From positions 248,001 through 312,000 of the forward strand of contig NZ_SOAU01000001.1 of the NCBI RefSeq assembly GCF_004364865.1: a DNA stretch of 64,000 nucleotides, in the 5' to 3' direction. Numbering within the stretch: position 1 is the stretch's first letter; each line of letters begins with the position of its first letter. The position numbers and the translations under genes are program-made. Of the stretch, positions 5,291 through 29,100 are shown one piece after another. The stretch comes from Ilumatobacter fluminis. GTDB lineage: Bacteria > Actinomycetota > Acidimicrobiia > Acidimicrobiales > Ilumatobacteraceae. The notes below the pieces were generated by a model. It was not told the origin of the DNA. It did not search any database and worked only from the letters and a program-made list of their open reading frames with translations.

Positions 5291-5803
5291 CTACGCGGAT
5301 TCGACGGCGGAGCGGGGGCGGAGGTCGAACCGGAACGAGGCGATGATGTCGCGGATCTCCTGAAGGCGGTGTTCGTGCTCGACCTCGAAGTGGCCGATGA
5401 TCTCGAACAGCTCGACCGGCCGATCCTCACCGAAACGCGGACCGAAGAACGCGGTGTACAGCTGACCCTTGCGGCGGGCGTCGTCGCCGTCGCCGACGGT
5501 GATCTCGGCCACCCGGAGATACGACGGGCGGCCGTGCAACAGCCCCTTGCGGGACACGCCGACCTTGGCGTCGGGGTCGGTCGCCTTCAGGGCGCCGATC
5601 GCGGCGCGGGTGACGAGGTCGAGATCGAACTGGGCCGATACTCGTTTCCACATAATCCCGCAGTTCGTGCCTTCCTCGTCGTCGACGGTCAGGTAGGCGA
5701 GATGGGTGGCGGTCTGGCGAGCCGACCATCGGTCGGGCGTCTCGAACGAGAACGGGGTGATGGTCCAGAAGTCCTCGCTCGGGACGGCGTGGCGTTGCGA
5801 CAT
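5291..5803 (-). CDS. DcrB/PsbP-like small protein 1
   Basis: The 170-residue product has no signal peptide. It begins SEDFWTITPFSFETPDRWSA, has a strand-rich centre, and ends with FGPRFGEDRPVELFEIIGHF and a helix before IIASFRFDL. The layout (Phe/Trp-rich strand, 'P..W' turn, long strands, terminal ASF) resembles the DcrB/PsbP/LpqN-like fold; this is tentative. It is clearly paralogous to the gene at 12385-12894, which has FWTITPFTMTVPETWTAKQT and GPKFGDDQPVELFELVAHL. It starts 10 bp after the large beta-repeat gene stops and is probably its cotranscribed partner, driven from the palindrome-bearing promoter at about 8562. Confidence 0.7.
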   Translation of the reverse strand: MSQRHAVPSEDFWTITPFSFETPDRWSARQTATHLAYLTVDDEEGTNCGIMWKRVSAQFDLDLVTRAAIGALKATDPDAKVGVSRKGLLHGRPSYLRVAEITVGDGDDARRKGQLYTAFFGPRFGEDRPVELFEIIGHFEVEHEHRLQEIRDIIASFRFDLRPRSAVESA

Positions 5804-5813
5804 GGCGGCTCCT

Positions 5814-8489
5814 TCAGTCGAGCAGGTCGTCGGTCGTCGGTTCGTCGATCGGCAGCGGTTCGGGTTCCGGCAGGGGTGCCGGCGCCTCGACCTCGAGCTG
5901 CGGTTCGGGGATCGGTTCGGGCATCGGCTCGGGAGCGGCTTCCACGACCGGCGTCGGTTCGGGCAGCGGTTCCGGTGCGGGTTCCACGACCGGCGTCGGT
6001 TCGGGTGTCGGCGCTACCGCCGGTGCGACCGGTTCGGCACCCTTGGTCCTGGCAGGTTGCTCGGGGGCAGGTCCGGGTTCCGGCGTCGGTGTGGGAGTGG
6101 CGGCCGGCCCTGCCGGCTCGGTGCCGGTGCGAGTCGGCTGCGCCAGCGCTGGATCGGTCGCGGGTTCGGTCTCGGGTTCGGGGGCCGGTGTCGGCGTTCG
6201 GGTGATCGGGTCGTCGAGCAGGTCGTCGGTGAGGGCAGGGCGATCGGCAGCGGGGTCGTGCACCGGTTGGTCGTGCAGCCGTTCGCCGTTGTCTTCGTCG
6301 ATCGCTCGGTCGTGTGCTCGGTCGTCGGGTCGGATGGGGTGGTCGAGTGGCTCGTCGGTCGGGTCGGGTTGCTCGGTGGCCAGGTTTCGCACGGGTTCGG
6401 CTTCACGCAGCGGTGCAGCCCGGTCAGCGTCGGCCGTCCCGTCGTGCGTCGGTTCATCGGGTCGGATGCGGCGGTCGGTGGCGAGCGGCTCGTCGTTGCC
6501 CTCGAACACGACCGCCGGCTCATCGAAGGTCGTGTCGGCGCTCTCGTCGACCATTCGGCCGGTCGACGTGACGATGTCGTCGAACGGGTCGGTGGGAGCG
6601 GGGTCGGGTCGGGTCGGGTGATCTCCGGAAACGTCTCGGCCGGGCCTCGCCGTTCCCTCCGACACCCGACCCGGGAAGTTGCCGGTTGTCGTGTCGTCGG
6701 CCGCGTGGGTCGGGAGGTCGCTGGCCCTCGTCGCTTCCTCCGACACCCGACCCGGGAGGTCGGCGGTCGTTGCGTCCGCGGTGTCGTCGTCGGTGCGGAG
6801 CCGGCGTTCTCGCATGCGGGTCTCGTCGGCCAGATCGCGGCGCCGAACGTCGTCGCTCTCGTCGACAGAGGAGTCGTCGGGCGTGTCGATCTCGTCACCG
6901 ACACCCATGTCGTCGTGCCAGCTCAGGTCGAGCTGCGACTCCGGTTCGGTGCGCTCCTCGTGGTGGTACTCGCCGTAGGTGCCGACGCCCTCATCGGTGT
7001 CGGCGCGCACGCCGATCTCCATCGACGACGACCACGGATCGGCGAGCGGTCCGCTGTCGGGCGTCTCCATCGTGCCGCCGAGTTCGACGCCGGCTCCGGT
7101 GCCGTCGGCCGTACCGTCGGTGCGGAAGTCGCCGCCGACGTGGAGACCCCAGTCGCCGACCCAGGCGTGGCCGGCGACGAATCCGGCCTCGCCCGACATC
7201 TCGAAGCCGCCGGGCCCGACGTCGACCGCCGCCTCACCGGCCGCACCGACGTAGGCACCGAAGGCGTTCAGCGTGACCTCGCCGTCGGCGGTGATCTCGA
7301 CGCCGTCGGACCCGACGTCGATCCCGAGGCTGCCCTCGCCCTGCACCGTGACCAGGCCGAGCTGCATCTCGACGAACGCATCCACGTCGGCCGAGAACTC
7401 GCCGTCCTCCCACTCGACGTCGAGACTGCCGCCGGCCTCGGCGAAGCCGAGGTCGATCTCGGCGTCGGCCTCGAACGACCAGTTGCCGTCGCTGTCCCAG
7501 TTGACCCCGGCGCCGACCTCGATGAAGACGAGATCGACCGATGCCGAGATCCCCTTCTCGGGTCCGATCAGATCGACGTCGACCTCGACGATCGCCAGAT
7601 CGACCGACACCGTGCCGTCCTCGTAGTACTCGATGATCCCGAGTAGCGACCACTCCGGCTCTTCCGGGTTGGGAACGACGTTGATGACCTCACCGTCGTC
7701 GATCCACATCGTGTAGTCGGCGCCCGGTGGGTCGTAGGTGGCGAGCGCCTCGCCCTCGGGCTGGAACGGTGCGACGTTGCCCGTGTCCAGTTGGTAGACG
7801 ACCTCGCCGGTCTCGGCGTTGACGACCTGGGTGTCGTACGTCGGCGGCCCCATCGGGACGGTGTAGGCCTCGAACGCCTCGGTGTCGGGAGGGAGCCCCA
7901 TCGCGACGGTCATGGGACCGCCGACCGTGAAGGTCGAATGGTCGACCTCGTCGAGCGTGCCCACCAGTTCCCCGTCGGCCACGACGACCTGCTCCCCGTT
8001 GTAGAGCTCGAACACCTCGAGCGCACCGTCGTCGCTGTACACCTGTCCGACGTAGACCGGATCTTCGGGGAAGGCCACCGCGACGACCTCGCCGTCGGCA
8101 TTCACCATGTAGGTAGCACCGTCGGGCATCAGGTAGATGTCGACCGGTTCGCCGTCGTGGGTGTCGGAGCCGAGGTAGTACGGATCCCCGTTCGCAGCGG
8201 CCTCCGCTCGGGCAGCCGCCTCGGCTTCCTCCGCTTCGCGAGCGGCTTGCGCCTCGGCGATCTCCTCGGCCCGCACCTCGTGGCGGCCCTGCTCACGAGC
8301 CTGGATGTCCTCCCACGTCTGGACGGGAGCGTCGATCTCGGGGTCGCCGTCACCGTCGTTGTCGAGTCCGGAGAACGGGTCGCGTTCGAAGCCGCTGCCA
8401 CCGTCGGTACCGATCGTGTCCGGGCCGTCGTACTGGGTGGCCTCGTTCCCCTCGAGTGATCCGGTGACGGGTGGGTCGATGTTGCTCAC
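5814..8489 (-). CDS. Large acidic beta-repeat protein 1
   Basis: The product is an 891-residue, very acidic protein of unknown function. Residues 1-60 are disordered and carry DPFSGLD. An Ala/Glu-rich coiled-coil segment follows (about 65-100), then short beta repeats of the type 'YYLGS..DGEPVDIYLMPDGATYM'. A long central region (about 270-500) alternates Gly/Val/Asp strands and may form a beta-solenoid or barrel. The last 380 residues are low-complexity and rich in Pro, Glu, Asp and Arg, ending in PEP repeats. There is no signal peptide. It is paralogous to the protein at 8613-12383. The start is GTG at 8489, preceded by GAGGAG. A palindromic element family occurs inside the gene (6611-6672, 6707-6753). 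An ATCGGG-N6-CCCGAT site lies 72 bp upstream. Confidence 0.75.
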   Translation of the reverse strand: MSNIDPPVTGSLEGNEATQYDGPDTIGTDGGSGFERDPFSGLDNDGDGDPEIDAPVQTWEDIQAREQGRHEVRAEEIAEAQAAREAEEAEAAARAEAAANGDPYYLGSDTHDGEPVDIYLMPDGATYMVNADGEVVAVAFPEDPVYVGQVYSDDGALEVFELYNGEQVVVADGELVGTLDEVDHSTFTVGGPMTVAMGLPPDTEAFEAYTVPMGPPTYDTQVVNAETGEVVYQLDTGNVAPFQPEGEALATYDPPGADYTMWIDDGEVINVVPNPEEPEWSLLGIIEYYEDGTVSVDLAIVEVDVDLIGPEKGISASVDLVFIEVGAGVNWDSDGNWSFEADAEIDLGFAEAGGSLDVEWEDGEFSADVDAFVEMQLGLVTVQGEGSLGIDVGSDGVEITADGEVTLNAFGAYVGAAGEAAVDVGPGGFEMSGEAGFVAGHAWVGDWGLHVGGDFRTDGTADGTGAGVELGGTMETPDSGPLADPWSSSMEIGVRADTDEGVGTYGEYHHEERTEPESQLDLSWHDDMGVGDEIDTPDDSSVDESDDVRRRDLADETRMRERRLRTDDDTADATTADLPGRVSEEATRASDLPTHAADDTTTGNFPGRVSEGTARPGRDVSGDHPTRPDPAPTDPFDDIVTSTGRMVDESADTTFDEPAVVFEGNDEPLATDRRIRPDEPTHDGTADADRAAPLREAEPVRNLATEQPDPTDEPLDHPIRPDDRAHDRAIDEDNGERLHDQPVHDPAADRPALTDDLLDDPITRTPTPAPEPETEPATDPALAQPTRTGTEPAGPAATPTPTPEPGPAPEQPARTKGAEPVAPAVAPTPEPTPVVEPAPEPLPEPTPVVEAAPEPMPEPIPEPQLEVEAPAPLPEPEPLPIDEPTTDDLLD
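6611..6672. repeat. REP-like palindromic element inside a coding sequence (copy 1)
   Basis: This 62-bp element has ends GGGTCGGGTG (6611) and CACCCGACCC (6663), a 10-bp inverted repeat, and an interior with CCGGAAACG and CCGTTCCCTCCG. It closely matches the intergenic element at 49858-49915. Here it is read in frame by the minus-strand gene, at about residues 605-626. Confidence 0.75.
6707..6753. repeat. REP-like palindromic element inside a coding sequence (copy 2)
   Basis: This shorter 47-bp relative has ends GGGTCGGGAG and CACCCGACCC and the interior TTCCTCCGACACCC. It lies 34 bp from copy 1. Together the two encode the repeated peptide pattern PGRVSE at about residues 578-626 of the large acidic protein. 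Confidence 0.65.
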
Positions 8490-8561
8490 GGTGTGCTCCT
8501 CGTGCCGGTGCGGGACGGGCCGTTCATGGTGCCCATGGTGACGGCCGCCGGGCGGCGCTGC

Positions 8562-8579
8562 ATCGGGAGGATCCCCGAT
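8562..8579 (-). promoter_or_regulatory. ATCGGG-N6-CCCGAT palindrome, site 1
   Basis: The site reads ATCGGG-AGGATC-CCCGAT and lies 72 bp upstream of the GTG of the large beta-repeat gene 1. It is an exact member of the six-site family described in the findings, and all members are preceded by C. An operator for a dimeric regulator is inferred. Confidence 0.8.
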
Positions 8580-8612
8580 CGCGACTCCCGGCGGCTCGTC
8601 ACGCTGGACATG

Positions 8613-11600
8613 TCAGGCCTGCTCGTCCATCAGGTCGGGTTCGGGCTCGAGGTCGGCTTCGGCCTCGACGGGAACGATCGGCTCGGGTTCGATCTCGACC
8701 ACCGGTTCGATGATCGGCTCGTCGACCACGACCGGTTCGATCGCCGGTTCGGCCGGCTGGACGATCGGTTCGGCCGGCTGTTCCAGCACCGGCTCGGGCG
8801 TCGGTGTCGGCTCGACGGGCTGGACCGTCGCAGCGGCCTGCGGTTCCGGCGCAGCCGGGCTCGCCGCTCGGACCGCCGTGATGTCGTCGTCGAGCAGGCC
8901 GTCGCGTGCCGGCGCATTGTCGCCCGACGCCACGACCGAGTCGGGCGCGATGTCGGGACGATCGATCCCTCTCGGCGCCTGGTCGACGCCGGCGTCGGCC
9001 GTCACCGGCTCGGTGTCGGGTCGCTCGATGCCACCGGGCGACTGGTCAGGGGTTGCAACCGTCGTCACCGGGTCGACGTCGTTCACCGGGTCCGACGGGG
9101 GAGGCGGTGCCGGGTTCGAGGCCGTCTGGGCTTGGCCGCGGAGGATGGGTGGGCCGTCGGCGATGTCGCCGAGGCCACCGTCGCCGTCGCCGAGGATGGG
9201 GTCGCGTCCGAGTCCGTCGGGGCGTCCGTCGCCGTCTTCGTCGATGTCCATGAGGCGTTCGGTGAAGATCGGCGGCTTGTTGGTGGGGCCGTCGGCGGGT
9301 GGTTCTGGTGCGGGCTCGTCGTCGGGGTCGACGCCGAACAGGGGGCGTCGGGGCCCGTTCGGGTCGGGGTCGGGTTCGGGGTCCGGTGCCGGTTCGTCGG
9401 CGGGGTTGGTCGCGTCGCCGTCTCGTCGCTGCCAGATCTTGGGCCTGCCCGAGCCGGGCCCGCCGCCGCCGGTGTCGGTGTCGTCGTCTTCCTCGGCCGG
9501 CGGTGGCGGCGCGGGGTTGGAGGCGGTTTGGGCTTGGCCGCGGAGGATGGGTGGTCCGTCGGCGATGTCGCCGAGGTCACCGTCGCCGTCGCCGAGGATG
9601 GGGTCGCGTCCGAGTCCGTCGGGGCGTCCGTCGCCGTCTTCGTCGATGTCCATGAGGCGTTCGGTGAAGATCGGCGGCTTGTTGGTGGGGCCGTCGGCGG
9701 GTGGTTCGGGTGCGGGTTCGTCGTCGGGGTCGACGCCGAACAGGGGTGGGCGTGGCCCGTTGGGGTCGGGGTCGGGTTCGGGGTCCGGTGCCGGTTCGTC
9801 GGCGGGGTCGGTCGCGTCGCCGTCTCGTCGCTGCCAGATCTTGGGCCTGCCCGAGCCGGGCCCGCCGCCGCCGGTGTCGCCGTCGTCGTCTTCCTCGGCC
9901 GGCGGAGGCGGCGCCGGCATCGACGCAGTCTGGGCGTCGTCGCCCGAGTCCCTTCGGACACCTTCGATCGTGGGCCCGCGCTCGTCGTCACCGATGCGGG
10001 CTTCACCCGAGTCCTTCCGGACACCCTCCAGGCCCGGATGCATCCCGACGGCAGCTTCATCGCCCGAGTCATCATCGTCCGACTCGTCATCGTCCGACTC
10101 GTCGGCGGGTGCTTCACCGATGCCGGCCGTGCCGTCCTCGCGCCACTCGACGCCGGTCGAGCCGTCGACGTCGTCCTCGGGGAGATCCGGGTCGCCGTGG
10201 CGGTCGTAGTCCTCCTTGGTGACGCCGGTGTCGAGGTGTTCGTTTCGCACCTCTGGGTTCGAGATGCCGTCCTGGTCGAGCGTCGAGTAGACGCCGGTCA
10301 TGCCGGTCTCGTCGCCGTCCTTGTCGTTGGTCGAACCGTAGATGCCGCCGGTCACCGACGAGCCGCCGATCGTGCCGTCGGTGTGGACCTGCGCCTCGGC
10401 GCCCGCTCGCACCTCGCCGATACCTTGGGCGCCGGCGCCGCGGTAGTACTCGTAGGTGGCGGTCACGCCATCGCTGTCGACGTCGATCGAGTACTGCTCG
10501 CCACCGGACACGTAGGCGCCGAGCATGCCGACCTTGCCGTCCCAGCCGTAGGTGCCCTCGAAGCCGTCGGGTCCTACTTCCACGTAGCCCTCGACGTCGA
10601 GGTCGATGTCGAAACCGGCCGGCACCGTCATGTCCATCTCCACGTCGGCGCCGGCGTACAGCGTGCCGTCCGAGGTGAGGCCGGCCTCGCCGTGGATGTC
10701 GAACGCGACACCCTGGCCGCCGACCTCGAGGTCGAGCGAAGCGTCGACGTAGACGTCGAACCCGTCCTCGCCGATCGACAGGCCGTAGCCGAGCTCGCCG
10801 ACACCGGCCACGTCGGCATTGACGTCGACGTCGATGCCTTCCTCGTCCCAGGCGACGCCGGCTTCGACCGAGCCGACCCAGTCGGCGCCCTCGATCAGCT
10901 CGCCGAGCCCGTCGCTCGAGAACCAGATGCCGCCGTCGGCGCCGAGATCCACCGTGACCTCACCGGCGCCCAGGTCGACCGTGACCGAACCGTCCTCGTA
11001 GTAGGTCACGATGCCGAGCACCGACCACTCCTCGTCGGGCGGCAACTCGAACGCGTCGACGATGTTGCCGTCGCTGTCGATGACGAGCACATAATCCTCG
11101 CCGGGAGGCGCGTAGTACGTGAACATTCCGGCCGGGTCGGTGGATCCGGTGTCCGAGCCGACCACGACCTCGTCGCTGTCGGCGGCGTAGACGACGCTGT
11201 CGTAGCTCGGGGGTCCCTTGGGGACCGCGTACACCTCCTCGATGTTGCCGTGCGGGGGGACCGGGGCGTAGTACGTGTCGAGTTCGACGTCGTCGAGGTA
11301 GCCGACGAAGTCGCCGTCACCGTCGACGATCACCATGTCGCCGTTCGGCAGCTCGATCAGCGAGCACGACTCACCGTCGACGCTCACCTGGCCCTGGTAC
11401 TCGGGTTCTTCACCCTCGGGCCACTCGAACCCGACGACCTCACGATCGTCGACCGCCACGTAGGCGATGCTGCCGTCGGGCATCTCCCAGACCTCGACGA
11501 GCTCGCCGTCGACCTCGGTCGTGCCCTCGAAGAACGGGTCGCCGGCGTCGTGCGCTGCGTCGCGGGCGTCGTCCTTGGCGTCCTTCGACTCCCACTTCAG

Positions 11601-12383
11601 GTCGACGACGGTCTCGGTCTCGGGATCGAAGTAGACGGTGCTGCCGTCGGGCATCAACCAGATCTGCACCTCGACACCGTCGACCGTCGTCGTGCCGTCG
11701 TAGTAGGCGTCGCCGTTCGCGTGCGCTTCCTCGATCGCCTCCCGGCGCTCCTGTCGCTCGGCGATCGCGTCCATGTCGGCACGCACGACGCCCGTGTCGA
11801 CCGCCAGGTCGCTGTCGCGGACCTCGGACATGGTGCCGTCGCCGACGAGCTCCATGCGGCTCGTGTCGATCTGGCGGTCGCCCTCGTCGCTACCCATCGC
11901 CTCGCGGGCGACGGCCGCGCCCGCTCCGGCGGCTCGGGGCTGGTCGACGGCGTGGACATTCTCCATCGTGATGGTGAGGTACGGGTCGGCCTCGGGTTGC
12001 GAGCCGGCCGGACCACTGTTGCCCGTCGCTCCGACTGCGTCCCGGGCACCGCCGGCCACGGGCTGATCGACCACGTTCTCCATCGTGATGGTGAGGTACG
12101 GGTCGGCCTCGGGTTGCGAGACGCCCGGGATGGCGGTCTCGACTTGGGCGACCTGGTCCGGCGTCCGGTCGCCGGCCGGCTGCGCCATGACCGTCTCGAA
12201 CGCGTCTGCCATGTGGGGTGAGTCACCCGACTGCGACGTGGCGGGTTCACCCGCTTCGGTGGTCTGGATCGGTTCGACGACCTCGACGTGTTCGGGGCCG
12301 CTGCTCTGCTGGATCAGCGAGACGATCTCGCTCTCGCGCTCGCCACGGGTGGCGAGGCGGTCGGTCGTGGTGTTCCCGCTCAT
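8613..12383 (-). CDS. Large acidic beta-repeat protein 2 with duplicated EF-hand-like segment
   Basis: The product is a 1256-residue acidic protein of unknown function, paralogous to the protein at 5814-8489. Near the N-terminus the phrase EADPYLTITMENV occurs twice. A short coiled coil (DAIAERQERREAIEEAHANG) follows, then the same 'DG.EV.IWLMPDGST' beta repeats. A long alternating Val/Gly/Asp strand region comes next. The C-terminal part contains a 134-residue segment present twice in tandem, each with DIDEDGDGRPDG, an EF-hand or thrombospondin-3-like calcium loop, then a Pro/Glu tail. There is no signal peptide. The ATG at 12383 lies 1 bp before the stop of the DcrB-like gene upstream, so the two are cotranscribed and probably translationally coupled. 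Confidence 0.75.
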   Translation of the reverse strand: MSGNTTTDRLATRGERESEIVSLIQQSSGPEHVEVVEPIQTTEAGEPATSQSGDSPHMADAFETVMAQPAGDRTPDQVAQVETAIPGVSQPEADPYLTITMENVVDQPVAGGARDAVGATGNSGPAGSQPEADPYLTITMENVHAVDQPRAAGAGAAVAREAMGSDEGDRQIDTSRMELVGDGTMSEVRDSDLAVDTGVVRADMDAIAERQERREAIEEAHANGDAYYDGTTTVDGVEVQIWLMPDGSTVYFDPETETVVDLKWESKDAKDDARDAAHDAGDPFFEGTTEVDGELVEVWEMPDGSIAYVAVDDREVVGFEWPEGEEPEYQGQVSVDGESCSLIELPNGDMVIVDGDGDFVGYLDDVELDTYYAPVPPHGNIEEVYAVPKGPPSYDSVVYAADSDEVVVGSDTGSTDPAGMFTYYAPPGEDYVLVIDSDGNIVDAFELPPDEEWSVLGIVTYYEDGSVTVDLGAGEVTVDLGADGGIWFSSDGLGELIEGADWVGSVEAGVAWDEEGIDVDVNADVAGVGELGYGLSIGEDGFDVYVDASLDLEVGGQGVAFDIHGEAGLTSDGTLYAGADVEMDMTVPAGFDIDLDVEGYVEVGPDGFEGTYGWDGKVGMLGAYVSGGEQYSIDVDSDGVTATYEYYRGAGAQGIGEVRAGAEAQVHTDGTIGGSSVTGGIYGSTNDKDGDETGMTGVYSTLDQDGISNPEVRNEHLDTGVTKEDYDRHGDPDLPEDDVDGSTGVEWREDGTAGIGEAPADESDDDESDDDDSGDEAAVGMHPGLEGVRKDSGEARIGDDERGPTIEGVRRDSGDDAQTASMPAPPPPAEEDDDGDTGGGGPGSGRPKIWQRRDGDATDPADEPAPDPEPDPDPNGPRPPLFGVDPDDEPAPEPPADGPTNKPPIFTERLMDIDEDGDGRPDGLGRDPILGDGDGDLGDIADGPPILRGQAQTASNPAPPPPAEEDDDTDTGGGGPGSGRPKIWQRRDGDATNPADEPAPDPEPDPDPNGPRRPLFGVDPDDEPAPEPPADGPTNKPPIFTERLMDIDEDGDGRPDGLGRDPILGDGDGGLGDIADGPPILRGQAQTASNPAPPPPSDPVNDVDPVTTVATPDQSPGGIERPDTEPVTADAGVDQAPRGIDRPDIAPDSVVASGDNAPARDGLLDDDITAVRAASPAAPEPQAAATVQPVEPTPTPEPVLEQPAEPIVQPAEPAIEPVVVDEPIIEPVVEIEPEPIVPVEAEADLEPEPDLMDEQA
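9127..9930. repeat. 402-bp tandem duplication within a coding sequence
   Basis: Two nearly identical 402-bp units (about 9127-9528 and 9529-9930) encode the 134-residue segment from AQTAS to PPILRGQ. Only a few substitutions separate them, so the duplication looks recent or is kept uniform by conversion. Confidence 0.9.
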
Positions 12384-12384
12384 G

Positions 12385-12894
12385 TCACGCCTCCTCGCTG
12401 CGCTGGAGGCTGAACTGGAACGAGGCGCAGATGGCGAGGGCCTCACGGAAGGCTGCACGGTCGCCCTGGGGGAGATGGGCGACGAGCTCGAACAGCTCGA
12501 CCGGCTGGTCGTCGCCGAACTTCGGTCCGTGGAGGGCGATGTAGAGCTGGGCCACCGGACGCTCCGACGTGGAGAACTCGGTGACGCGCATCAGCGACTT
12601 GACGCCGTTGAGCTTTCCGGGCTTCGCCTCGATCAGCTTGGCGTCGCCGTCGGCGCGGCGGATGTTGGCGACGTGGACGTCGGCGCTGGCCAGGAGGCCG
12701 AGCCCGGCGGGCACTCGCTGCCACCGCACGGCGATCGTCGATCCGCCGTCGGGCGACGTCGCGTACACCAGGTGGTCGACGGTCTGCTTCGCGGTCCAGG
12801 TCTCCGGCACCGTCATGGTGAACGGCGTGATCGTCCAGAACTGGGCGCTCGGGACGACGAGCGGGGTCATGGTGGGGAGAGCGGTGTCGGTCAT
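12385..12894 (-). CDS. DcrB/PsbP-like small protein 2
   Basis: The 169-residue product is the paralogue of the protein at 5291-5803 and is predicted to be cytoplasmic, because I see no signal peptide. Conserved features are FWTITPFTMTVPETW, GPKFGDDQPVELFELVAHL and the closing ASFQFSL. The fold is tentatively DcrB/PsbP-like and no activity is known. I used ATG 12894 (MTDTALPTMTPL); an internal ATG at 12870 is possible. It is the first gene after palindrome site 2 (63 bp upstream) and is followed directly by the large beta-repeat gene 2. The gene order is the reverse of the 5.3-8.5 kb pair. Confidence 0.7.
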   Translation of the reverse strand: MTDTALPTMTPLVVPSAQFWTITPFTMTVPETWTAKQTVDHLVYATSPDGGSTIAVRWQRVPAGLGLLASADVHVANIRRADGDAKLIEAKPGKLNGVKSLMRVTEFSTSERPVAQLYIALHGPKFGDDQPVELFELVAHLPQGDRAAFREALAICASFQFSLQRSEEA

Positions 12895-12956
12895 CGTGCT
12901 GGTCCTTCGGGTGGTTGGCTCATGTGTCGATCGTGAACGACCACCGCCCGGGGCAC

Positions 12957-12974
12957 ATCGGGAAGATCCCCGAT
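12957..12974 (-). promoter_or_regulatory. ATCGGG-N6-CCCGAT palindrome, site 2
   Basis: The site reads ATCGGG-AAGATC-CCCGAT and lies between the stop of the Ig-domain lipoprotein gene (12984) and the start of the DcrB-like gene (12894). It is an exact member of the family. Confidence 0.82.
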
Positions 12975-12983
12975 CCGCCTCGG

Positions 12984-14897
12984 TCAGCAGCCGACTCGGA
13001 GTGTGATGCGAGTGGTGTCGGTCTGTCCGGTGGCCGAGTTGCGGGCGACGATCTGGATGGCGTAGTCGCCGGGGTTGGCCGGCGCCGTCGTGTCGATCCG
13101 CCAGTTGCTGCCACTCCGCCCGAGTGCGATCTGGCTGCCGCCGAGTTGTGCGCCGACCTGATCGACGACGCCCGTCGTCTGCGCTCCGATCGCCACCGAC
13201 TGCCCGCACTTGGCCGGATTCGGGTTGGCGGCTGCATTCGTGATCGTCGGCGGGGCGGGCGGTTGCGTCGTCGTGGTGGTCGGTGCCGCCGTGGTGGTGG
13301 GCGCCGCGGTCGTCGTGGGGGCGTGGGTCGTGGTCGTGTTCGCGGGCGGCTGCGTCGTCGTCGTGTCGGTCGGAGCCTGCGTCGTCGTCGTGACACCCGG
13401 GTCGCACGCGGACGGGCGGCGGAGTCGGCCCTCCTGCTGCAGGGTGCGTGTCTGGCCGTCGACGGTGGCTCGGATCTGCACGCCGAGCGTCGATCGGTCG
13501 GGCATGCCGGCCCAGCCGTCGAACGGGCCGAGCGTGCCGCGCCATGCACCGTTCGCGTAGCCGAGGGCACGTTCGACTTGTTGGCCGTTGGCGGTGCGGG
13601 CGGTGACGACCACCGACGACGCCCGTTGCGGGGCGGTCGCGGCGATGGTGAACGTGGTGGCGCCGCCCGGGCAGAAGCCCGAACCGGTCGCCCAGATCTC
13701 GAGCGGGTTCGGCGTCGCCGTGACGGTGAACTCCTGATCGGTCGGCTCGTCGGGCGTCGTGTCGTCCGGGATCGAGCCGTCCGGGTCGGTGGGCACTGTG
13801 TCGGCAGGGTCGACGCACGGCCGCACGAGGGTCACCGACACGGTCTTGATGGCGGTTGTGCCGTAGACGTCGGTGGCGGTGACGGTGAACGTCACGACGA
13901 CCTGTTCGCCGGCGGGCGGGGAGCCGAACGGTCCGAGCTGCACACTGAAGTCGCGTTCGCCCCGGGCCTGCATCGAGCGCGACACGGTCGATCCGTCGGG
14001 CAGCGTGCCCGTGGCGGTCATCCCGACGACGGCGCCCGACGCCTGCACCCGGATGCCGACCTGCGTCGGACGATCGAAGCAGTCGGCCACTTCCTTGCCG
14101 ACGATCACGCCGTCGGCCGGGTTGGTGGTGACCTGGAGCGACACCGGCCCGGGCAGGCTCCGCCTCCGGTTCTCGTTCGTGCCGTCGCACGGCTCGGGTG
14201 CTCGAACGGTGAGGCCGAGGTCGGCTACGACCTCGTCGCCGTCGACGGTGCGGGCGACGACGGTGACGGCCATGGCCCGATCGCGCCGGTTCGTCGCCTC
14301 GATCGGGCCCACGATCGCCCGCCACACCCCGTCGTCGCCGACGGCGAAATCGAGGCTGCGACGCCGACCGGCGTCGCCGTCCGGCTCGGTCGTGGTCGTC
14401 ACGACGGGATCGTCCTCCGCCGTCGTCGTGGTCGTACTGGTGGTCGTCGAGCTGGTCGTCGTGCTCGTCGAGGTGTCGGCGTCCGGGTCGACCCGTTCGA
14501 AGAACGCACGAACGCCGAGCACGTCGTCCGGGTCGACGCCATCGAGTTCGGCGGAGAACACGGCCACCGCCGGTTCGGCCGGGCTGCAGATGTCGTCGCG
14601 GTCGGTCGTGGCCCAGATGAACGCCTGGTCCGACTCGACGTGCAGTTCCAGATCGCCGGCGCGGGCGGTCGCCGCGAGCACCTCGACCAGGGGCAGGGTC
14701 GTGCTGGTCGTCGAGGTCGACGACGTGGTCGTGGTCGCCGCCTCGGTCGTGGTGGTGGATGCGGCGGTCGTCGTCGACGCATCGGTCGATGCGGTCGTGG
14801 TCGCCGTCTCGTCGTCGCCGCCTGCGCACGCCGCGGCGAACAGGGCGAGGGCTGCGAGCGAGGCGGCGAGCCGTCGGGGCGCGGATGTCGACATCAT
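12984..14897 (-). CDS. Ig-domain lipoprotein with Thr-rich linkers
   Basis: The product is a 637-residue exported lipoprotein. It opens with basic residues and a hydrophobic stretch ending in LFAAAC, so Cys24 is the likely lipidated residue. A long Thr/Ser linker follows. Next come about four beta-sandwich domains with Cys-containing junctions (for example VRAPEPC, VTLVRPC, RRPSAC), then a second Thr/Pro linker at about residues 515-555, and a last domain beginning PPTITNAAANPNP. This is an extracytoplasmic scaffold of unknown partner; I recognise no catalytic motif. Two adjacent ATGs (14897 and 14894) are both possible starts. It has its own ATCGGG-N6-CCCGAT site 34 bp upstream, which places it in the same apparent regulon as the dynamins. 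Confidence 0.75.
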   Translation of the reverse strand: MMSTSAPRRLAASLAALALFAAACAGGDDETATTTASTDASTTTAASTTTTEAATTTTSSTSTTSTTLPLVEVLAATARAGDLELHVESDQAFIWATTDRDDICSPAEPAVAVFSAELDGVDPDDVLGVRAFFERVDPDADTSTSTTTSSTTTSTTTTTAEDDPVVTTTTEPDGDAGRRRSLDFAVGDDGVWRAIVGPIEATNRRDRAMAVTVVARTVDGDEVVADLGLTVRAPEPCDGTNENRRRSLPGPVSLQVTTNPADGVIVGKEVADCFDRPTQVGIRVQASGAVVGMTATGTLPDGSTVSRSMQARGERDFSVQLGPFGSPPAGEQVVVTFTVTATDVYGTTAIKTVSVTLVRPCVDPADTVPTDPDGSIPDDTTPDEPTDQEFTVTATPNPLEIWATGSGFCPGGATTFTIAATAPQRASSVVVTARTANGQQVERALGYANGAWRGTLGPFDGWAGMPDRSTLGVQIRATVDGQTRTLQQEGRLRRPSACDPGVTTTTQAPTDTTTTQPPANTTTTHAPTTTAAPTTTAAPTTTTTQPPAPPTITNAAANPNPAKCGQSVAIGAQTTGVVDQVGAQLGGSQIALGRSGSNWRIDTTAPANPGDYAIQIVARNSATGQTDTTRITLRVGC

Positions 14898-14931: not shown

Positions 14932-14949
14932 ATCGGGAGAACTCCCGAT
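14932..14949 (-). promoter_or_regulatory. ATCGGG-N6-CCCGAT palindrome, site 3
   Basis: The site reads ATCGGG-AGAACT-CCCGAT and sits 34 bp upstream of the lipoprotein start, in the 73-bp gap after the third DcrB-like gene. It is exact in both arms. Confidence 0.82.
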
Positions 14950-14970: not shown

Positions 14971-15447
14971 TCACGCCGGGTCGGCCTCTCGGAACGAGGC
15001 GACCACGTCGACGAAGACGGGCCCGAACTCGTCGAGCTCGCCCACGGGGGCGGTGCCGACGAACGAGAACGCATCGCGAGCCGGACCCGACTCGATGAGG
15101 AACATCGCCTGCAGCTGCGCCACCGGGGTCGTGCCGCCGATCGCGACCTCGCGGAGGTACACCAGTCGGTCGCCGAAGCGACCCGTCCGCTGCGCCCGGA
15201 TCTCCGCCGACGGGTGAGCCTGTCGTTGGCGAGCGAACGACCGGACGGCGACGTCGCGCAACCCGGTCTCGTCGTCGACACGCAGCGAGGTGACGGTGAT
15301 CGAACGAGTCGGGTGACGCTCGTCGCTCAGTCGGGCGACTGCACCGGGTGCCGTCACCGCGACCCACCCGTCGGCGACGTCGACGTCGAACGTCGGCACC
15401 GCCGGGACATCGCCCGAAGGAATTCGCACCGTCTGCTTGTCCACCAT
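14971..15447 (-). CDS. DcrB/PsbP-like small protein 3
   Basis: The 158-residue product resembles the other two small proteins in outline more than in detail. It has a strand with VADGWVAVTAP near residues 25-35, a central RTGRFGDRLVYLREVAIGG, and a terminal VDVVASFREADPA that recalls the ASF ending of its relatives. No signal peptide is visible. The fold call is tentative. It is transcribed divergently from the LuxR-type regulator, across a 269-bp region filled by 56-bp repeats, and it lacks the palindromic site seen upstream of its neighbours. Confidence 0.6.
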   Translation of the reverse strand: MVDKQTVRIPSGDVPAVPTFDVDVADGWVAVTAPGAVARLSDERHPTRSITVTSLRVDDETGLRDVAVRSFARQRQAHPSAEIRAQRTGRFGDRLVYLREVAIGGTTPVAQLQAMFLIESGPARDAFSFVGTAPVGELDEFGPVFVDVVASFREADPA

Positions 15448-15716: not shown

Positions 15717-17117
15717 ATGGACGTGGTGGGTCGCGACGAGGTGATCGGCGAGGCACGAGCCCTGCTCGCAGGCGGTGCCGGCGCCCTCGCGGTCGTCGGC
15801 CCGGCCGGTTCGGGTGTCAGCGCGGTGCTCGCTGCTGTCGCCGACGAAGCCCACGCCATCGGCCGACCGCTCGTCACCGGCGCCGGTCGACCGGCCGAAC
15901 AGCACGTGCCGGCGGCGCTGCTGCGCGAGTTGGCGACCGGCGACGAGGCACTGGCCACCGTCCTCCGCGGCGTCGCCGGCGACGACGACGGCGGCTACGC
16001 GATCGCCGTGTTCGAGTGGGCGTCGGCGGGCCGACCCGTCGCCTTGATCGTCGATGACCTCCATCTCGCCGACGGCCCGTCGGGCGATGCGATCACCCAC
16101 CTCGCCCGACGCGCCGAACTGACCTCGGTGACCCTCGTCATCGGCACACACGACGCAGCCGGGCTCGACGGTGTCACGACGATCGAGCTCACTGCACTGT
16201 CGGCCGACGACCTGATCGGTGTGCTCGAACGACGCGTCGGGTCGATCGACCCGTCGGTCGCACGGGCAATCGCCCAGCTGGCCGAGGGATCGCCGCTCGT
16301 CGCCGTCGAGGTCGCCCGTTCCCTCGACGATGCGCAGCGGCGCGGCACCGAACCGTTGCCGTCGTTCGCCGCCGTCGCCGCGCCGATCCGGCATGCGTTC
16401 GCGCACGGCGTCGAAGGGCTCCCCGACGACACGCGCCGGGCGCTGTGCCTGGCCGCCGCCGAACCCACCGGCGAGGTCCGTGTGATCGCCGCCGCACTGC
16501 GTTCCCTCGGTGACGACCTCGCCGCCCTCGAACCCGCTGAGGACGTCGGCATCATCACCATCGCCGACGGCGAGGTCGTGTTCGACCACCCGATCCGCCG
16601 CAGCGTCGCCTACCACCAACTCGCCCCCGCCAGCAGGCGTGGCGCCCACCGGGCGCTCGCCGCGGCACTCGACGCGCCGCAGGACGCGGAGCGTCGTCTC
16701 GCCCACCTCGTCGCCGGTGTGATCGAGCCGAACGAGTCGCTCGCATCCGACCTCGAGTTCGCCGCCGAGGCGGCCGAGCGCCGACGTGACGCGCTCGAGG
16801 CGCGGCGGTGGTGGCTCGCCGCATCGCGCCTGTCGCCCGACGCCGCCGACGCCGAGCGACGTCGTCATCGCGCCGACGCTGCCGGTTCGCTCGACGGCGA
16901 TCCGCTCGCCGCCCTCACGAAGGCCGAGCGACGGGTGGCGGCCGTGGTCGGCAGTGGCGCCACCAACAAGGCAACCGCCGAGACGTTGTACGTGAGCGTC
17001 AAGACGGTCGACGCGCACCTCCAGTCGATCTACCGCAAGCTCGCCATCTCGTCGCGAGCCGAGCTCGCGGTGCTCGTCACGCAAGCCGGACTGGCCGGGG
17101 CGGGGAGGGCCGGATGA
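15717..17117 (+). CDS. LuxR-type AAA transcriptional regulator with degenerate P-loop
   Basis: The 466-residue product has an N-terminal AAA/STAND-type NTPase region and a C-terminal LuxR (GerE) helix-turn-helix at about residues 400-460 (LTKAERRVAAVV, then YVSVKTVDAHLQSIYRKL). The Walker B-like strand LIVDDLHLAD is intact. The P-loop reads GPAGSGVSAV, where family members normally have Lys in place of Val, so ATP binding may be lost or changed. Mycobacterial IniR, which controls the dynamin genes iniA and iniC, has a similar overall plan; orthology is not shown. It overlaps the next gene by ATGA. It is the obvious candidate to bind the ATCGGG-N6-CCCGAT sites on both sides of it. Confidence 0.82.
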   Translation: MDVVGRDEVIGEARALLAGGAGALAVVGPAGSGVSAVLAAVADEAHAIGRPLVTGAGRPAEQHVPAALLRELATGDEALATVLRGVAGDDDGGYAIAVFEWASAGRPVALIVDDLHLADGPSGDAITHLARRAELTSVTLVIGTHDAAGLDGVTTIELTALSADDLIGVLERRVGSIDPSVARAIAQLAEGSPLVAVEVARSLDDAQRRGTEPLPSFAAVAAPIRHAFAHGVEGLPDDTRRALCLAAAEPTGEVRVIAAALRSLGDDLAALEPAEDVGIITIADGEVVFDHPIRRSVAYHQLAPASRRGAHRALAAALDAPQDAERRLAHLVAGVIEPNESLASDLEFAAEAAERRRDALEARRWWLAASRLSPDAADAERRRHRADAAGSLDGDPLAALTKAERRVAAVVGSGATNKATAETLYVSVKTVDAHLQSIYRKLAISSRAELAVLVTQAGLAGAGRAG

Positions 17118-17432: not shown

Positions 17433-18866
17433 TCAGGTGGTGTAGCGGCGTTCGTGGTGTCTTGTCATGGTGTCGGCGACGGTGATCTCGAGCGGGCCGG
17501 CGAGGGGATCGGTCGCCACCTCACGCCAGCGGGTCATCGCCGCCAGTGCAGCATCACGGTCGGCGTTCGCCGGTCCCGACATCGCCTGCTCGACGTCGGT
17601 GGCGAGGTCGGCCGGGAGCCTCACCGCACCCGACAGCACCAGGTGCGCCGCATTGAGCAGCGCGAACTCCGCCGCGCTGGCGTCGGCCCGGTCGACCTCG
17701 GCGGCGAGGGTCGCTGCATCCGGATGGCCGACGGCGGTCAACTCGGCCACCAGGCCTCGCAGCGCGACGAGCGTCGTCCTCGCCTTCAGCAGCCGTGCTC
17801 GCGGCATGAACTGGTCGGCGATCAGCCGTCGGAGTGCCGACAGCCCCGACAGGTCGACGAGATGGTCGGACAGCTCGCGGGCGGAACCAACCGTTCCGGT
17901 CACGATCGCATCGATCGCCGCCCGGACCCCGAAGATGCCGAGCCGGTCGAGCAGGTCGCGGCGGATCTCGGCGGTGAGCGGGCTGGCGTTCACGTCGCAG
18001 AAGTCGTCGACCGACAGCAGCAGCCGCACTCGCTCGCCGTCCGGCATCGCCGCCAGTTGTGCGAGCTGTGCGTACTCAGACTCCCGGAGGGTCAGCCCGG
18101 TCTCGGCCAGCAGACCCGCCACCGCGACCACGTCAGACACCAACGTCCGCACGTCGGGGTCGCCGGCGTAGCGTTTTGCGATCCGGTGCGCCGACTCCAT
18201 CGCGTTCGGGCGACACGCCCCGATCTCGTCCGACCGTGACAGCACGGCGACGGCGTTCACCGGTGAGGCGCCGGCGACCGATCGGTCCATGAACGAGCCG
18301 AGGAAGTCGGCGTCGGCCTTGTGGAGGTGCCGCATCAGGTAGATGACGGCGTCGGCGTTCGCCGGGTTGGTGCGATCGTGGTCGAGGAACGCTTGGGTTC
18401 GCTGGCTGTTCTCGTCGTTGAGCGACGCCAGACCGGGCGTGTCGATGAGGGTGATCTCGGTGAGGGAGCGGCTCGGCCAGCCGACGTCGAGCCGGTCGAT
18501 CTCGTCGGCGTGTCGACCGAGGTCGATCGCAAGCGCACCCTCGTCGCGCTTGAACGTGAGCGGGACGCGGCGCCCGTCGGCGAGATCGGCGGCCACCTCG
18601 TAGCCGTCGGCGTGGTGGTACAGGGTGACCAGATGGGTGCACTCGCCCGCATCGGTCGCCGCCAGTCGTTCGCCGACCAGCGCGTTGAGCAGGGTCGACT
18701 TGCCCGCCTTCACGCGTCCGGCGATCGCGATCCGCAGGGGTCCGCGGAAGCGCTCGGCGATCGCCGTCGCCCGGTCGGCGTGTGGGCTGCCGGCCGTCAG
18801 GCGCTCGGCGGTGTCGCACAGTTCGCCGACGGTGGTGACCACGTCGAGATTCGGCCGATCGCTCAT
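17433..18866 (-). CDS. Dynamin-like GTPase B (IniC-like position)
   Basis: The 477-residue product is a dynamin-superfamily GTPase. The G1 loop GRVKAGKSTLLNAL is at about residues 56-69, the switch/G3 motif is IDTPGLASLND, and the G4 position reads LSRSDEIG, a variant of the usual TKxD. The rest is helical, as in the stalk of bacterial dynamins, and no clear transmembrane paddle is seen. Its start overlaps the stop of dynamin A (ATGA). Such paired, overlapping dynamins occur in actinobacteria as IniA/IniC-type membrane-remodelling proteins, which respond to cell-wall stress in mycobacteria. Heteromeric action with dynamin A at the membrane is inferred from the pairing. Confidence 0.85.
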   Translation of the reverse strand: MSDRPNLDVVTTVGELCDTAERLTAGSPHADRATAIAERFRGPLRIAIAGRVKAGKSTLLNALVGERLAATDAGECTHLVTLYHHADGYEVAADLADGRRVPLTFKRDEGALAIDLGRHADEIDRLDVGWPSRSLTEITLIDTPGLASLNDENSQRTQAFLDHDRTNPANADAVIYLMRHLHKADADFLGSFMDRSVAGASPVNAVAVLSRSDEIGACRPNAMESAHRIAKRYAGDPDVRTLVSDVVAVAGLLAETGLTLRESEYAQLAQLAAMPDGERVRLLLSVDDFCDVNASPLTAEIRRDLLDRLGIFGVRAAIDAIVTGTVGSARELSDHLVDLSGLSALRRLIADQFMPRARLLKARTTLVALRGLVAELTAVGHPDAATLAAEVDRADASAAEFALLNAAHLVLSGAVRLPADLATDVEQAMSGPANADRDAALAAMTRWREVATDPLAGPLEITVADTMTRHHERRYTT

Positions 18867-20680
18867 GCCGCACCTCCGGCCAACTCGTCGAGCCCGGCGG
18901 CGAGGGTGTCGCCCCGTTCGAGCATTGCCCTGATCCCAGCAGCGCGTTCGGTTGCGGCCTGCTCGCCGGCCGCGAGGGTTTGTTGCGCCTGCTGGGCGGC
19001 GGCCGTCCAGCTCGTCTGCAGATCGCCGATCAGTGCGATGAACTCGTCACGCAGCTCGCGCTGCACCGATCGGAGGAACTGGGTGATCTCGTTCATCACC
19101 TCGAACTGGACCTCGTCGGTGAAGGAGCGCAGCTGGGTGCGCGCGCCCTGACGCCGTTGCTGCAGCTTCCGTTTCCGGTCGTCCATCAGCTGGAACCCAC
19201 CGAACAGGGCGCCGGCGCCGAGCAGCACCGGGTTCGACGCGATGAACAGCGCCGCCGCCTGCGGGAGGAACTGGCTGCTGACACCGAGCATGAGCACGCC
19301 GCCCTGAGCGCCGCGCAGACCCGTGATGCCGGTGCGGAACGCACGGCCGCCCGACGACTCCGACGGATCGATGTCGCGCGCCCGCCACATCGACGCCGTG
19401 TCGAGCACGTCGAACTGGCGTGACTCGCTCGGCCCGATCACGTCGTCGGCTGCGAGCAGCTCGGCGAGTTCGGCCCGGATCGAACCGCGGCCGGTCTCGA
19501 TCGACACGAACGCCTCGGTCACCGTGTCGGCGACGTCGCTCTGCAACGTGGCGGCGAGCCCGTCCCACTGCTCGGCCGTCTTCAGCGTCTCGATCTGTTC
19601 CTCGATGATCCGGGTCGTCTCGCGAACCCGGCCGCGGAGCCGGTGCGTCACCTCGCTCGACAGGTCGGTGATGCGATCGCCGAGCACGGTCTGCCAACGC
19701 GCCGACCCGCCGCGCAAGGTCTCGAGCCGCTGTGTCGCCGCGTCTGCCTGCTCCCGGAGTCGCTCGGCGGCAGCCGGATCGGTGAGTGCCTCGAGTTCGG
19801 CGCGCAGCACCGACTCCGTCGATCGGATCATGGCGGCGGTCTCGCCGGCGGCACGCGTCGCCGCGTTCGCCTTGGCCGGTCCGATGACCCGCTTCGCGAG
19901 CACCTGGATCAGCTCGGGGATGCCGCTCCGTTCGTTGAGTTCGCGGTCGCGGGCGGTGAACGCCGCCTGGCGCAGCGCCGAACTCACCGGGACGATCGGG
20001 ATGTCGAGGTCGCGACGGTCGAGGTGCGCCCGGTCGAGATCGAGGATGCGTCGCCATTCGGGTGCGATGTCGGTCTTGGTGAGGGCGATGACGACGTCGG
20101 GGCACCGTTCGCGGGCGATGGCCAGGAAGTCGAGCTCGGGTGCCGTCAACTCGGAGGTGGCGTCGCTGACGAACACCAGCCCGTCGGCGAACGGCAGGAA
20201 CGAGAGGGTGGCGCTGGCGTGACCGGCACCGAGGCCGCCCATGCCGGGCGAGTCGACCAGGGCGAGGCCGTCGGCGAGGAGCGGGCTCGGGACGAGCACG
20301 TCGACGCGCTCGATCCGGCGGTCGCTGGTCGACCCGTGTTCGGTGACGTACGTGGCCACCTCGTCGACGGCGATCCGTTCGGCCTTCGGCTCGTCGTCAC
20401 CGACGTAGCGGACGACGGCGTCGGCCTGCTCGCCGTGGCGGACGAGGGTCAGGGTCGCGGTCGCGATGTCGTCGTCGACCGGGCAGAGCTCTTGGCCGAT
20501 CAGTGCGTTCAGGAGTGAGCTCTTGCCCTGCTTGAACTCGCCGACGATGCACACCACCGTGTTCGGCCGAGCGGCCCGCACACGTGCAGCCTGGGCGCGA
20601 TCGGCGAGATCGGCGCGGCCAGCCGAGCGGAGCAGCTCACCGGCTGCGGCGAGCGACTGGTCGAGATCGGCCACGCTCAT
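18863..20680 (-). CDS. Dynamin-like GTPase A with membrane paddle (IniA-like)
   Basis: The 605-residue product is a bacterial dynamin-like GTPase. It shows G1 GEFKQGKSSLLNAL at about residues 46-59, G3 VDSPGMGG and G4 ALTKTDIAPEW, then a long coiled helical region. A hydrophobic hairpin, VLMLGVSSQFLPQAAALFI followed by VLLGAGALFGGFQLM, lies at about residues 470-510 and fits the membrane-inserting paddle. It is followed by the basic stretch DDRKRKLQQRRQ. The chosen ATG overlaps the stop of the acidic gene upstream. It is the second gene of a three-gene operon headed by palindrome site 4. A role in membrane repair or remodelling is known for mycobacterial relatives; here it is inferred. Confidence 0.88.
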   Translation of the reverse strand: MSVADLDQSLAAAGELLRSAGRADLADRAQAARVRAARPNTVVCIVGEFKQGKSSLLNALIGQELCPVDDDIATATLTLVRHGEQADAVVRYVGDDEPKAERIAVDEVATYVTEHGSTSDRRIERVDVLVPSPLLADGLALVDSPGMGGLGAGHASATLSFLPFADGLVFVSDATSELTAPELDFLAIARERCPDVVIALTKTDIAPEWRRILDLDRAHLDRRDLDIPIVPVSSALRQAAFTARDRELNERSGIPELIQVLAKRVIGPAKANAATRAAGETAAMIRSTESVLRAELEALTDPAAAERLREQADAATQRLETLRGGSARWQTVLGDRITDLSSEVTHRLRGRVRETTRIIEEQIETLKTAEQWDGLAATLQSDVADTVTEAFVSIETGRGSIRAELAELLAADDVIGPSESRQFDVLDTASMWRARDIDPSESSGGRAFRTGITGLRGAQGGVLMLGVSSQFLPQAAALFIASNPVLLGAGALFGGFQLMDDRKRKLQQRRQGARTQLRSFTDEVQFEVMNEITQFLRSVQRELRDEFIALIGDLQTSWTAAAQQAQQTLAAGEQAATERAAGIRAMLERGDTLAAGLDELAGGAA

Positions 20681-21354
20681 CCGTCGGTGCCCTCGTCGAG
20701 GTCGTCGAACGCGTCGTAGCCGGAGTCGGCCGCGTCGTCGCCGGACGGCTCCGACGTCCACGACGGGTCGGTGGCCCCGACGCCATCGGCCACGGCGTCG
20801 CCGCCAGGTGCATCCTCGGCGACGTCGAACGAGTCGAACGCGTCGTACGGGCCGACCCCGGTGTCAGCCGGGCCGGCGTCGTCACTGTCAGCGGGTGGGG
20901 GCGTCGCCGTCGATGGGTCGGCGGGTGCGGGTGCGATGTCGTCGACGACCACATCGTCGGTGTCGTCCGTGTCGACGGTCGGGTCGGGGAGTTCCTCGGT
21001 CTGTGCTTCCGTCTCGGCGACGAACTCGTCGAACGGGTCGACCAGGCTCGGCTCGGAGTCGGTGTCCGACACCGTGTCGGAAGCGGTGGGGACGGCGAAC
21101 TCGGTGTCGACGTCGTCGCGAGCTGCGAGGTCGTCCTCGGTGATCTCGATCTGGTCGACGTCGTCGGTGAGGCCTGTGATCATCGCGTCGCCGAGCCACG
21201 AGTCGCCTGCGGGAGCGGGCGACTCGTCGAGTGCGGCAGCGGCGGCGGCGTCCGTACTCGGGTCGATCTCGACGCCGTCGGCGGGCGCGTCGGCCCAGCC
21301 GGGGCGGTGGTCGAGGTGGCGGTCGAGCCAGCTCGGGGCGGGAGCGTGGTCCAT
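20677..21354 (-). CDS. Acidic disordered protein heading the dynamin operon
   Basis: This 225-residue protein is dominated by Asp, Ala, Pro and Thr and is probably disordered. It has recurrent short aromatic-acidic motifs: DPFDEF at residues 106-111, and YDAFDSFD and YDAFDDLD near the end. It has no signal peptide or membrane segment and I know no homologue. It holds the position that iniB holds in the mycobacterial iniBAC operon, but the compositions differ, so I do not call it IniB. The start lies 35 bp from palindrome site 4. Overlap with dynamin A (ATGA) implies coupled translation and suggests an adaptor for the GTPases. Confidence 0.72.
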   Translation of the reverse strand: MDHAPAPSWLDRHLDHRPGWADAPADGVEIDPSTDAAAAAALDESPAPAGDSWLGDAMITGLTDDVDQIEITEDDLAARDDVDTEFAVPTASDTVSDTDSEPSLVDPFDEFVAETEAQTEELPDPTVDTDDTDDVVVDDIAPAPADPSTATPPPADSDDAGPADTGVGPYDAFDSFDVAEDAPGGDAVADGVGATDPSWTSEPSGDDAADSGYDAFDDLDEGTDG

Positions 21355-21389: not shown

Positions 21390-21407
21390 ATCGGGAACAT
21401 CCCCGAT
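21390..21407 (-). promoter_or_regulatory. ATCGGG-N6-CCCGAT palindrome, site 4
   Basis: The site reads ATCGGG-AACATC-CCCGAT and lies in the 54-bp gap between the methyltransferase stop (21409) and the acidic gene start (21354). It would serve the acidic protein-dynamin A-dynamin B operon. Confidence 0.83.
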
Positions 21408-23883: not shown

Positions 23884-23901
23884 ATCGGGAATCCTCCCGA
23901 T
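23884..23901. promoter_or_regulatory. ATCGGG-N6-CCCGAT palindrome, site 5, in a divergent promoter region
   Basis: The site reads ATCGGG-AATCCT-CCCGAT. It lies 73 bp from the start of the repeat-protein gene on the minus strand and 70 bp from the start of the plus-strand SUKH-like gene, so it could control both directions. Confidence 0.82.
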
Positions 23902-24451: not shown

Positions 24452-24513
24452 CGGCGGCGCCTCTGGCGACGTGGTTGAAGCCCGGCCGAAGCCGGTCGGC
24501 CATGATGGGCGCC

Positions 24514-29048: not shown

Positions 29049-29082
29049 ACCCAGATCGAACCCGATGCCCGGATCCCGGAAC

Positions 29083-29100
29083 ATCGGGAAGATTCCCGGT
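29083..29100 (-). promoter_or_regulatory. ATCGGG-N6-CCCGGT, near-exact palindrome, site 6
   Basis: The left arm is exact, the centre is AAGATT, and the right arm differs at one base. The spacing (34 bp to the start codon) matches sites 3 and 4. It lies between the msrB stop and the lipoprotein hydrolase start. Confidence 0.65.

Follow-up and report, generated by a model that had tools for sequence, protein, structure and literature searches.

The two gene pairs at positions 5291-12894 of the window (the whole 64,000-nt stretch of Ilumatobacter fluminis DNA analysed here) are best explained, with a probability of roughly 0.64, as a duplicated and internally rearranged module inside an IniR/IniAC-type regulon that would include a candidate IniR-like activator, acidic scaffolds and their small partners. 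The gene set was judged to be a lineage-specific expansion of such a regulon, without a recognisable IniB. Co-regulation of the genes lying behind a common dyad is well supported by their promoter sequences. IniR and iniBAC, a cell-envelope stress system, are already known from mycobacteria. The accessible parts of the literature on IniR/iniBAC, on the acidic products of IniB-IniA-IniC systems and on Ilumatobacter dynamins describe no such dyad regulon and no pairs of acidic and DcrB-fold proteins, both of which are, to that extent, new as described here.

The gene pairs and their protein families

All four genes are located on the minus strand, in the transcription order small B, large B, large A, small A. 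Small B (12385..12894) encodes a protein of 169 aa, and large B (8613..12383) an acidic protein of 1256 aa with a beta-repeat domain and an internal tandem duplication. Large A (5814..8489), which has a GTG start, encodes an acidic protein of 891 aa (acidic fraction 0.23) with a beta-repeat domain at about residues 100-480 and a Pro/Glu-rich tail, and small A (5291..5803) encodes a 170-aa member of the small DcrB/LpqN-fold family. The swapped gene order described in the first-pass annotation, with the large gene first in pair A and the small gene first in pair B, was confirmed, and the genes within the pairs, said there to be 10 bp or less apart, were measured to be separated by 10 bp (large A/small A) and 1 bp (small B/large B). 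Paralogy had been claimed for both kinds of gene and was borne out by pairwise alignment, in which large A and large B are 36% identical over 394 aa (E 2e-43) and small A and small B 39% identical over 156 aa (E 1e-38). The large proteins might have been alike only in low-complexity parts, which had been named as the result that would refute the claim; with SEG low-complexity masking the alignment still has an E value of 4.5e-39, and the paralogy stands. The internal duplication of large B (window 9100-9519 and 9520-9939) is recent, with 385 of 420 bases identical.

The proposal that both copies are selected was upheld in part. When small A was compared with its homologue in the sister Ilumatobacter MAG OFTM217 (locus L086), the differences at the three codon positions were found to be 0.32/0.30/0.49, a third-position excess as expected under purifying selection, whereas those of copy B were hardly concentrated at third positions (0.45/0.41/0.42 against A and 0.45/0.41/0.51 against the sister copy). 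To judge by these codon counts, a signature of purifying selection can be seen between small A and the sister copy, whereas for copy B it is not clear. A single-pair ancestor had been suggested as something to look for in relatives; L086 contains one small gene followed by the start of an acidic gene. A, B and the sister copy were not resolved in a tree of five small proteins, and the tree therefore settles neither the time of the duplication nor the ancestral gene order. The small-before-acidic order is shared by pair B and the sister MAG, and the swapped order is seen in pair A only.

The genome contains four large-family genes, namely large A, large B and two stand-alone genes (genome 352262-353680 and 1795942-1797426), the latter two being 43% identical to each other. 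The 352262 gene gives a weak match to large A (E about 1e-4 over 96 residues). A profile (A9) built from the four genes detected no fifth member in this genome and none in four other genomes (one of five, own only), and no homologue of the large family was found in 60 relatives (1/61 genomes, own only). Large-family profiles also gave no match in the sister MAG (0/1), where only 65 codons of the L086 acidic gene are present on the contig. A model of the beta domain of large A was too poor for use (pLDDT 55), and its porin-like matches, which were weak (best E 8e-3, TM 0.2-0.3), were discarded.

The small family has a divergent third member in the window, small 3 (14971..15447, minus strand; 158 aa), with E 1e-5 against small A and 0.012 against small B in pairwise comparison and 6e-8 with the small-family profile. 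No homologue of the small family was found in 60 relatives (1/61, own only) or in 395 other genomes of the phylum (1/396, own only). A contig scan returned one further locus, L086; it used short exact peptide patterns, so that distant relatives would be missed. The model of small B (pLDDT 85) shows the Mog1/PsbP/DcrB/LpqN fold with best Z scores of 14-16, the matches including a Jonesia protein (3lyd, Z 16.0), cyanobacterial PsbP (2xb3, Z 15.7), LpqN (6e5d, Z 14.7) and DcrB (6e8a, Z 14.2). The Pfam DcrB cutoff (PF08786) was not reached, small B scoring 17.7 against 27.2 bits and small A giving no match, and small B is therefore said to have the fold and is not called a DcrB. Small B also differs from these families in lacking a hydrophobic N-terminus and in being encoded beside an acidic protein. 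The fold is generic and serves many roles.

Among the fold matches of small B are also the Eag chaperones SciW (Z 13.1) and EagT6 (Z 12.4), which raises the alternative that these are chaperone-effector pairs, the small protein being an Eag-like (DUF1795/DcrB) chaperone and the large one a secreted effector. In the Eag pairs of type VI secretion a small DcrB-fold protein is likewise encoded directly beside a large protein, an arrangement matched by the two pairs here and by the small gene and large acidic gene of L086, and the available part of one account places the genes of the first two Eags to be studied upstream of those for their effectors (PMC7773334). Eags bind the transmembrane domains of effectors, however, whereas no transmembrane stretch was found in any of the four large-family proteins by hydropathy scan (maximum 19-residue hydropathy 1.15 and 0.89 for the two of the window), and large A and large B contain no PAAR or toxin domain in Pfam (PAAR at E 1 or better). 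The equally good matches to LpqN, PsbP and DcrB, the actinobacterial host and a promoter type common to the pair genes and the dynamins likewise argue against this explanation, which is considered improbable. Two immunity proteins of type VI secretion have the same fold (TplEi, Z 13.7; Tsi3, Z about 10), so that the small proteins might instead protect against toxic large partners. Toxin-immunity pairs would, however, leave the unpaired large-family genes without immunity, and both the lack of any Pfam toxin match in either large protein and the setting, a dyad gene set with dynamins, make this a very improbable account.

The shared dyad and its promoter geometry

Each pair had been reported to carry its own palindrome, and perfect-arm dyads were located at 8562-8579 (ATCGGGAGGATCCCCGAT, preceding large A-small A) and 12957-12974 (ATCGGGAAGATCCCCGAT, preceding small B-large B). 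There is indeed one per pair, but these palindromes are not special to the pairs and are common to many other genes. With the pattern ATCGGG-N6-CCCGAT and up to one mismatch, six dyads were found in the window (8562, 12957, 14932, 21390, 23884 and 29083) against 0.37 expected, a number reached in none of 100 shuffles. The dyad at 14932..14949 precedes the gene of a 637-aa Thr-rich protein (12984..14897, minus strand) with, as judged by eye, a lipoprotein-type N-terminus; that at 21390..21407 precedes the genes acid225-dynA-dynC; and that at 23884..23901 precedes an acidic repeat gene (22518..23810, minus strand), which is followed by the gene of a class I methyltransferase (21409..22515, minus strand; Methyltransf_12 E 4.3e-14). 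The sixth, at 29083..29100, has one mismatch and precedes an alpha/beta-hydrolase-like gene (open frame 27939-29084, minus strand; Pfam matches below cutoff). Five of the dyads lie 34-73 bp upstream of start codons, namely those of the large A, small B, 637-aa, 225-aa acidic and acidic repeat genes.

Outside the window, dyads precede acidic beta-repeat genes (genome 352209 and 1797461), and all four of the large-family genes have one in front. Further dyads are located at 326744, between a lipoprotein-type and a membrane-protein-type gene, and at 559736, before a lipoprotein-type gene (types assigned by eye). Perfect-arm sites number eight in this genome, five of them in the window, and 0-5 in each of 60 relatives. 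A looser pattern gave 11 sites in this genome against 2-6 in seven other genomes, indicating that count alone neither is decisive nor marks the dyad as unique to this genome.

The position of the dyads relative to a second element is more regular. The minus-strand hexamers CACCAT (8535..8540) and CACGAT (12930..12935), both -10-like, each follow their dyad, at 8562 and 12957 respectively, by 21 nt. A hexamer NANNNT was found 21 or 22 nt beyond the dyad on the side facing the gene at 15 of 16 sites from three genomes and on the far side at one of 16, compared with three of 56 readings of 28 control dyads (Fisher P 1e-11 against 15/16). The 16 sites, ten from this genome, two from the sister MAG and four from the family relative G016, are not a random sample, having been chosen, before the spacing was inspected, for the shape of the dyad and a suitable gene next to it; the controls were loci from relatives outside this set, with one G016 C1 site among them. 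The hexamer count excludes G000:1262341, G000:2007596 (which has no suitable gene beside it and showed no hexamer when read either way), the C29, C14 and C23 sites of G016, and four of the six G061 dyads. Across 17 readings, one site being read both ways, seven hexamers were at 21 nt and nine at 22 nt, whereas any other offset from 0 to 59 gave at most one in 17 and the upstream side at most two at any offset. The sole miss, with no -10-like hexamer at 21-22 nt, is the site at 29083, whose dyad is also imperfect. The dyad at 326744 (G000:C1:326744; L064:8744) lies between divergent envelope-type genes and is followed in both directions by a -10-like hexamer at 22 nt, suggestive of a possible two-way promoter.

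In promoters activated by class II LuxR-type proteins the dyad is classically centred near -42.5. If the hexamer at 21-22 nt serves as the -10 element, the dyad centre falls at about -42.5 to -43.5, a position that fits a class II LuxR-type activator. None of the acidic-gene promoters of six relatives of genus g104 was found to have such a dyad at this spacing. In a distant relative (L132), a dyad TCGGGGGGGAATCCCCGA with TAGCGT at 22 nt precedes an acidic gene, which, as one of 15 loci scanned, is suggestive only.

Regulator, dynamins and relatives

An IniR-like regulator of 466 aa is encoded on the plus strand at 15717..17117 and contains an AAA_16 ATPase domain (E 3.3e-8) and a C-terminal LuxR (GerE) HTH (E 4.5e-12). 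Beyond it, on the minus strand, are an IniC-like dynamin gene, dynC (17433..18866; Dynamin_N E 6.6e-11), the IniA-like dynA (18863..20680; IniA 6j72 E 1.5e-90 over query residues 17-591) and, in the iniB position, the gene of a 225-aa hyperacidic protein (20677..21354), with 4-bp overlaps at both junctions. The 225-aa protein, which occupies the place of IniB, matched neither NCBIfam IniB_NTERM nor any Pfam family and is therefore not called an IniB. Large A, large B and the acidic repeat protein, which complete the four window acidic proteins tested, also gave no match to IniB_NTERM. An Hsp70-like ATPase gene (24475..26730, plus strand) follows, and such a gene was also near the dynamins in four of six relatives opened. 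The intergenic stretch from small 3 to the iniR-like gene contains three copies of AACAGAAGGGGTCAGGCACC (two direct, one inverted; 15544-15563, 15600-15619 and 15663-15682) against 0 expected by chance, and similar pieces in L064, recognised by eye, suggest a genome-wide repeat. Further along, a Flp/Tad pilus-like locus occupies about 29.7-36.4 kb of the window on the plus strand, with a T2SSE ATPase (31754-33166, E 1.1e-22) and T2SSF (34005-34880, E 2.2e-8).

The IniA-type dynamin, the adjacent second dynamin, the acidic low-complexity product in the iniB position and a nearby regulator combining AAA and LuxR-HTH domains are all shared with the mycobacterial iniBAC/IniR system (PMC5760070; PMC6715688). 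According to the accessible part of the IniR paper, mycobacterial IniR has an ATPase and LuxR-type DNA-binding make-up, the M. marinum gene is 2454 bp long, IniR of M. tuberculosis controls iniBAC exclusively, and what IniB does in the drug-induced iniBAC response is unclear (PMC5760070); a 2026 paper, in the part available, mentions several IniR-regulated genes (PMC13413693). The present system differs, on this evidence, in its shorter regulator and in having one dyad at about ten places in the genome, and it differs further in the lack of an IniB N-terminal domain in the window acidic proteins tested here, in the pairs of large beta-repeat and DcrB-fold proteins, and in the Hsp70 neighbour. 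Nowhere does the main text of the IniR paper (PMC5760070) use the terms 'palindrom', 'inverted repeat' or 'binding site', and the palindrome reported at the BCG iniBAC promoter is, in the available part of that report, one of HpoR and unlike the dyad found here (PMC13413693).

IniA-like genes were found in 10 of 61 order-level genomes and, at E 1e-30 or better, in 21 of 396 genomes of the phylum, own included in both counts. An acidic-rich ORF (acidic residues well above basic) ends just before dynA at 19 of 26 loci and is absent at seven; the protein in the iniB position of G021 matches IniB_NTERM weakly (21.2 against a cutoff of 40 bits). In the family relative G016, a dyad of the form ACCGGGA...TCCCGG precedes the acidic gene of an acidic-dynA-dynC operon and three other acidic genes. 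In the sister MAG, L086 contains the end of dynC (52% identity), a gene for an IniR-like protein (55% identical across its whole length), a homologue of small 3 (44%), a membrane-protein-like gene and the dyad TTCGGGAATCTTCCCGAT, together with a small-family gene whose product is 54% identical to small A and 36% to small B, and the initial 65 codons of the acidic gene; a second dyad of the sister genome precedes a gene for a 175-aa acidic protein. A link between the dyad and acidic proteins thus appears in three genomes, the acidic proteins being mostly unlike in sequence. Short motifs are common to some of these otherwise unlike proteins behind dyads: the 175-aa protein (L106:861-1499) contains LDKSSPK, also present in the window acidic repeat protein (22518-23810), and its YLIITMEDVID is similar to the YLTITMENVVD repeats found in large B (8613-12383). 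A C-terminal DD-x(0,2)-hydrophobic tail, picked after inspection, was found in 12 of 15 acidic proteins behind dyads against a mean of 1.3 for internal stretches; the outside test, made with acidic ORFs preceding dynA in relatives from the phylum, gave it at only 4 of 19 loci (G395 twice, G290 and G394), and it was dropped as a general trait.

The IniR-like protein is the probable binder of the dyad, as suggested by synteny of regulator, small 3, dyad and small gene in the sister MAG and by the near-identity of the regulator HTH there. Alternatively, a repressor or a different LuxR-type protein might bind the dyad. The regulator query has 17 matches in this genome, the three listed of the 16 others all being LuxR-HTH only, so that the candidate is not unique, and no dyad was detected in the interval separating small 3 from the iniR-like gene. 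Nevertheless, the position near -43 suits an activator, and regulator and dyad have been kept together in the sister MAG; a different binder is accordingly rated unlikely.

Physical pairing of the small and large proteins is the weakest step of the proposed regulon. The first-pass annotation took the two proteins to function as a pair, and a small gene directly before an acidic one does recur in L086; pairing is, however, not obligatory, since the large-family genes at 352262-353680 and 1795942-1797426, two of the four, stand without a small gene next to them, and small 3, one of the three small-family genes, has neither a large neighbour nor a dyad of its own. Adjacency in two pairs and probably a third keeps the pairing plausible, weakened as it is by these unpaired members. 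The genes may instead have been duplicated together behind a shared promoter while their products act separately, a reading to which the unpaired members, the unconserved gene order and the unrelated products mixed in the other dyad operons all lend some weight. Set against it are the recurrence of a small gene next to an acidic one in two tandem copies and in another species, the short gaps, and the rearrangement of one copy, and co-regulation without interaction is held to be a possible though somewhat doubtful explanation.

A proposed model for the regulon

In the preferred reading, that of a duplicated module within an IniR/IniAC-type regulon, an envelope signal would switch on the IniR-like protein (15717-17117), a putative STAND-type ATPase with a LuxR-type HTH. 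The protein would then bind the 18-bp dyad, with its centre some 43 bp upstream of each start site, the bound dyad taking the place of a -35 element and polymerase being recruited by class II activation. Genes activated jointly in this way would comprise the IniA/IniC-type dynamin pair, with a presumed role in membrane fission or repair, the hyperacidic proteins in the place of IniB, and the lipoprotein-type genes. IniA cuts membranes in vitro, according to the accessible part of PMC6715688. The large proteins are predicted to be cytosolic acidic beta-repeat proteins that may form a stress-induced scaffold or coat near the membrane, and the small DcrB/LpqN-fold protein may serve as a soluble adaptor or partner for the large protein of the adjacent gene.

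A broader and decidedly speculative extension is that IniR-type regulators of bacteria other than mycobacteria control a regulon scattered over the genome, whose hyperacidic cytosolic proteins form a stress-induced membrane coat or matrix with the IniA/IniC dynamins. The swapped duplicates of Ilumatobacter would then represent two adaptor-scaffold isoforms, with DcrB-fold adaptors dedicated to the beta-repeat proteins. The dyad provides a concrete candidate site for an IniR-type regulator. With a readable site, promoters of fixed geometry and several acidic proteins that appear to be co-regulated, this environmental lineage would be a tractable place to study the acidic partners of dynamins.
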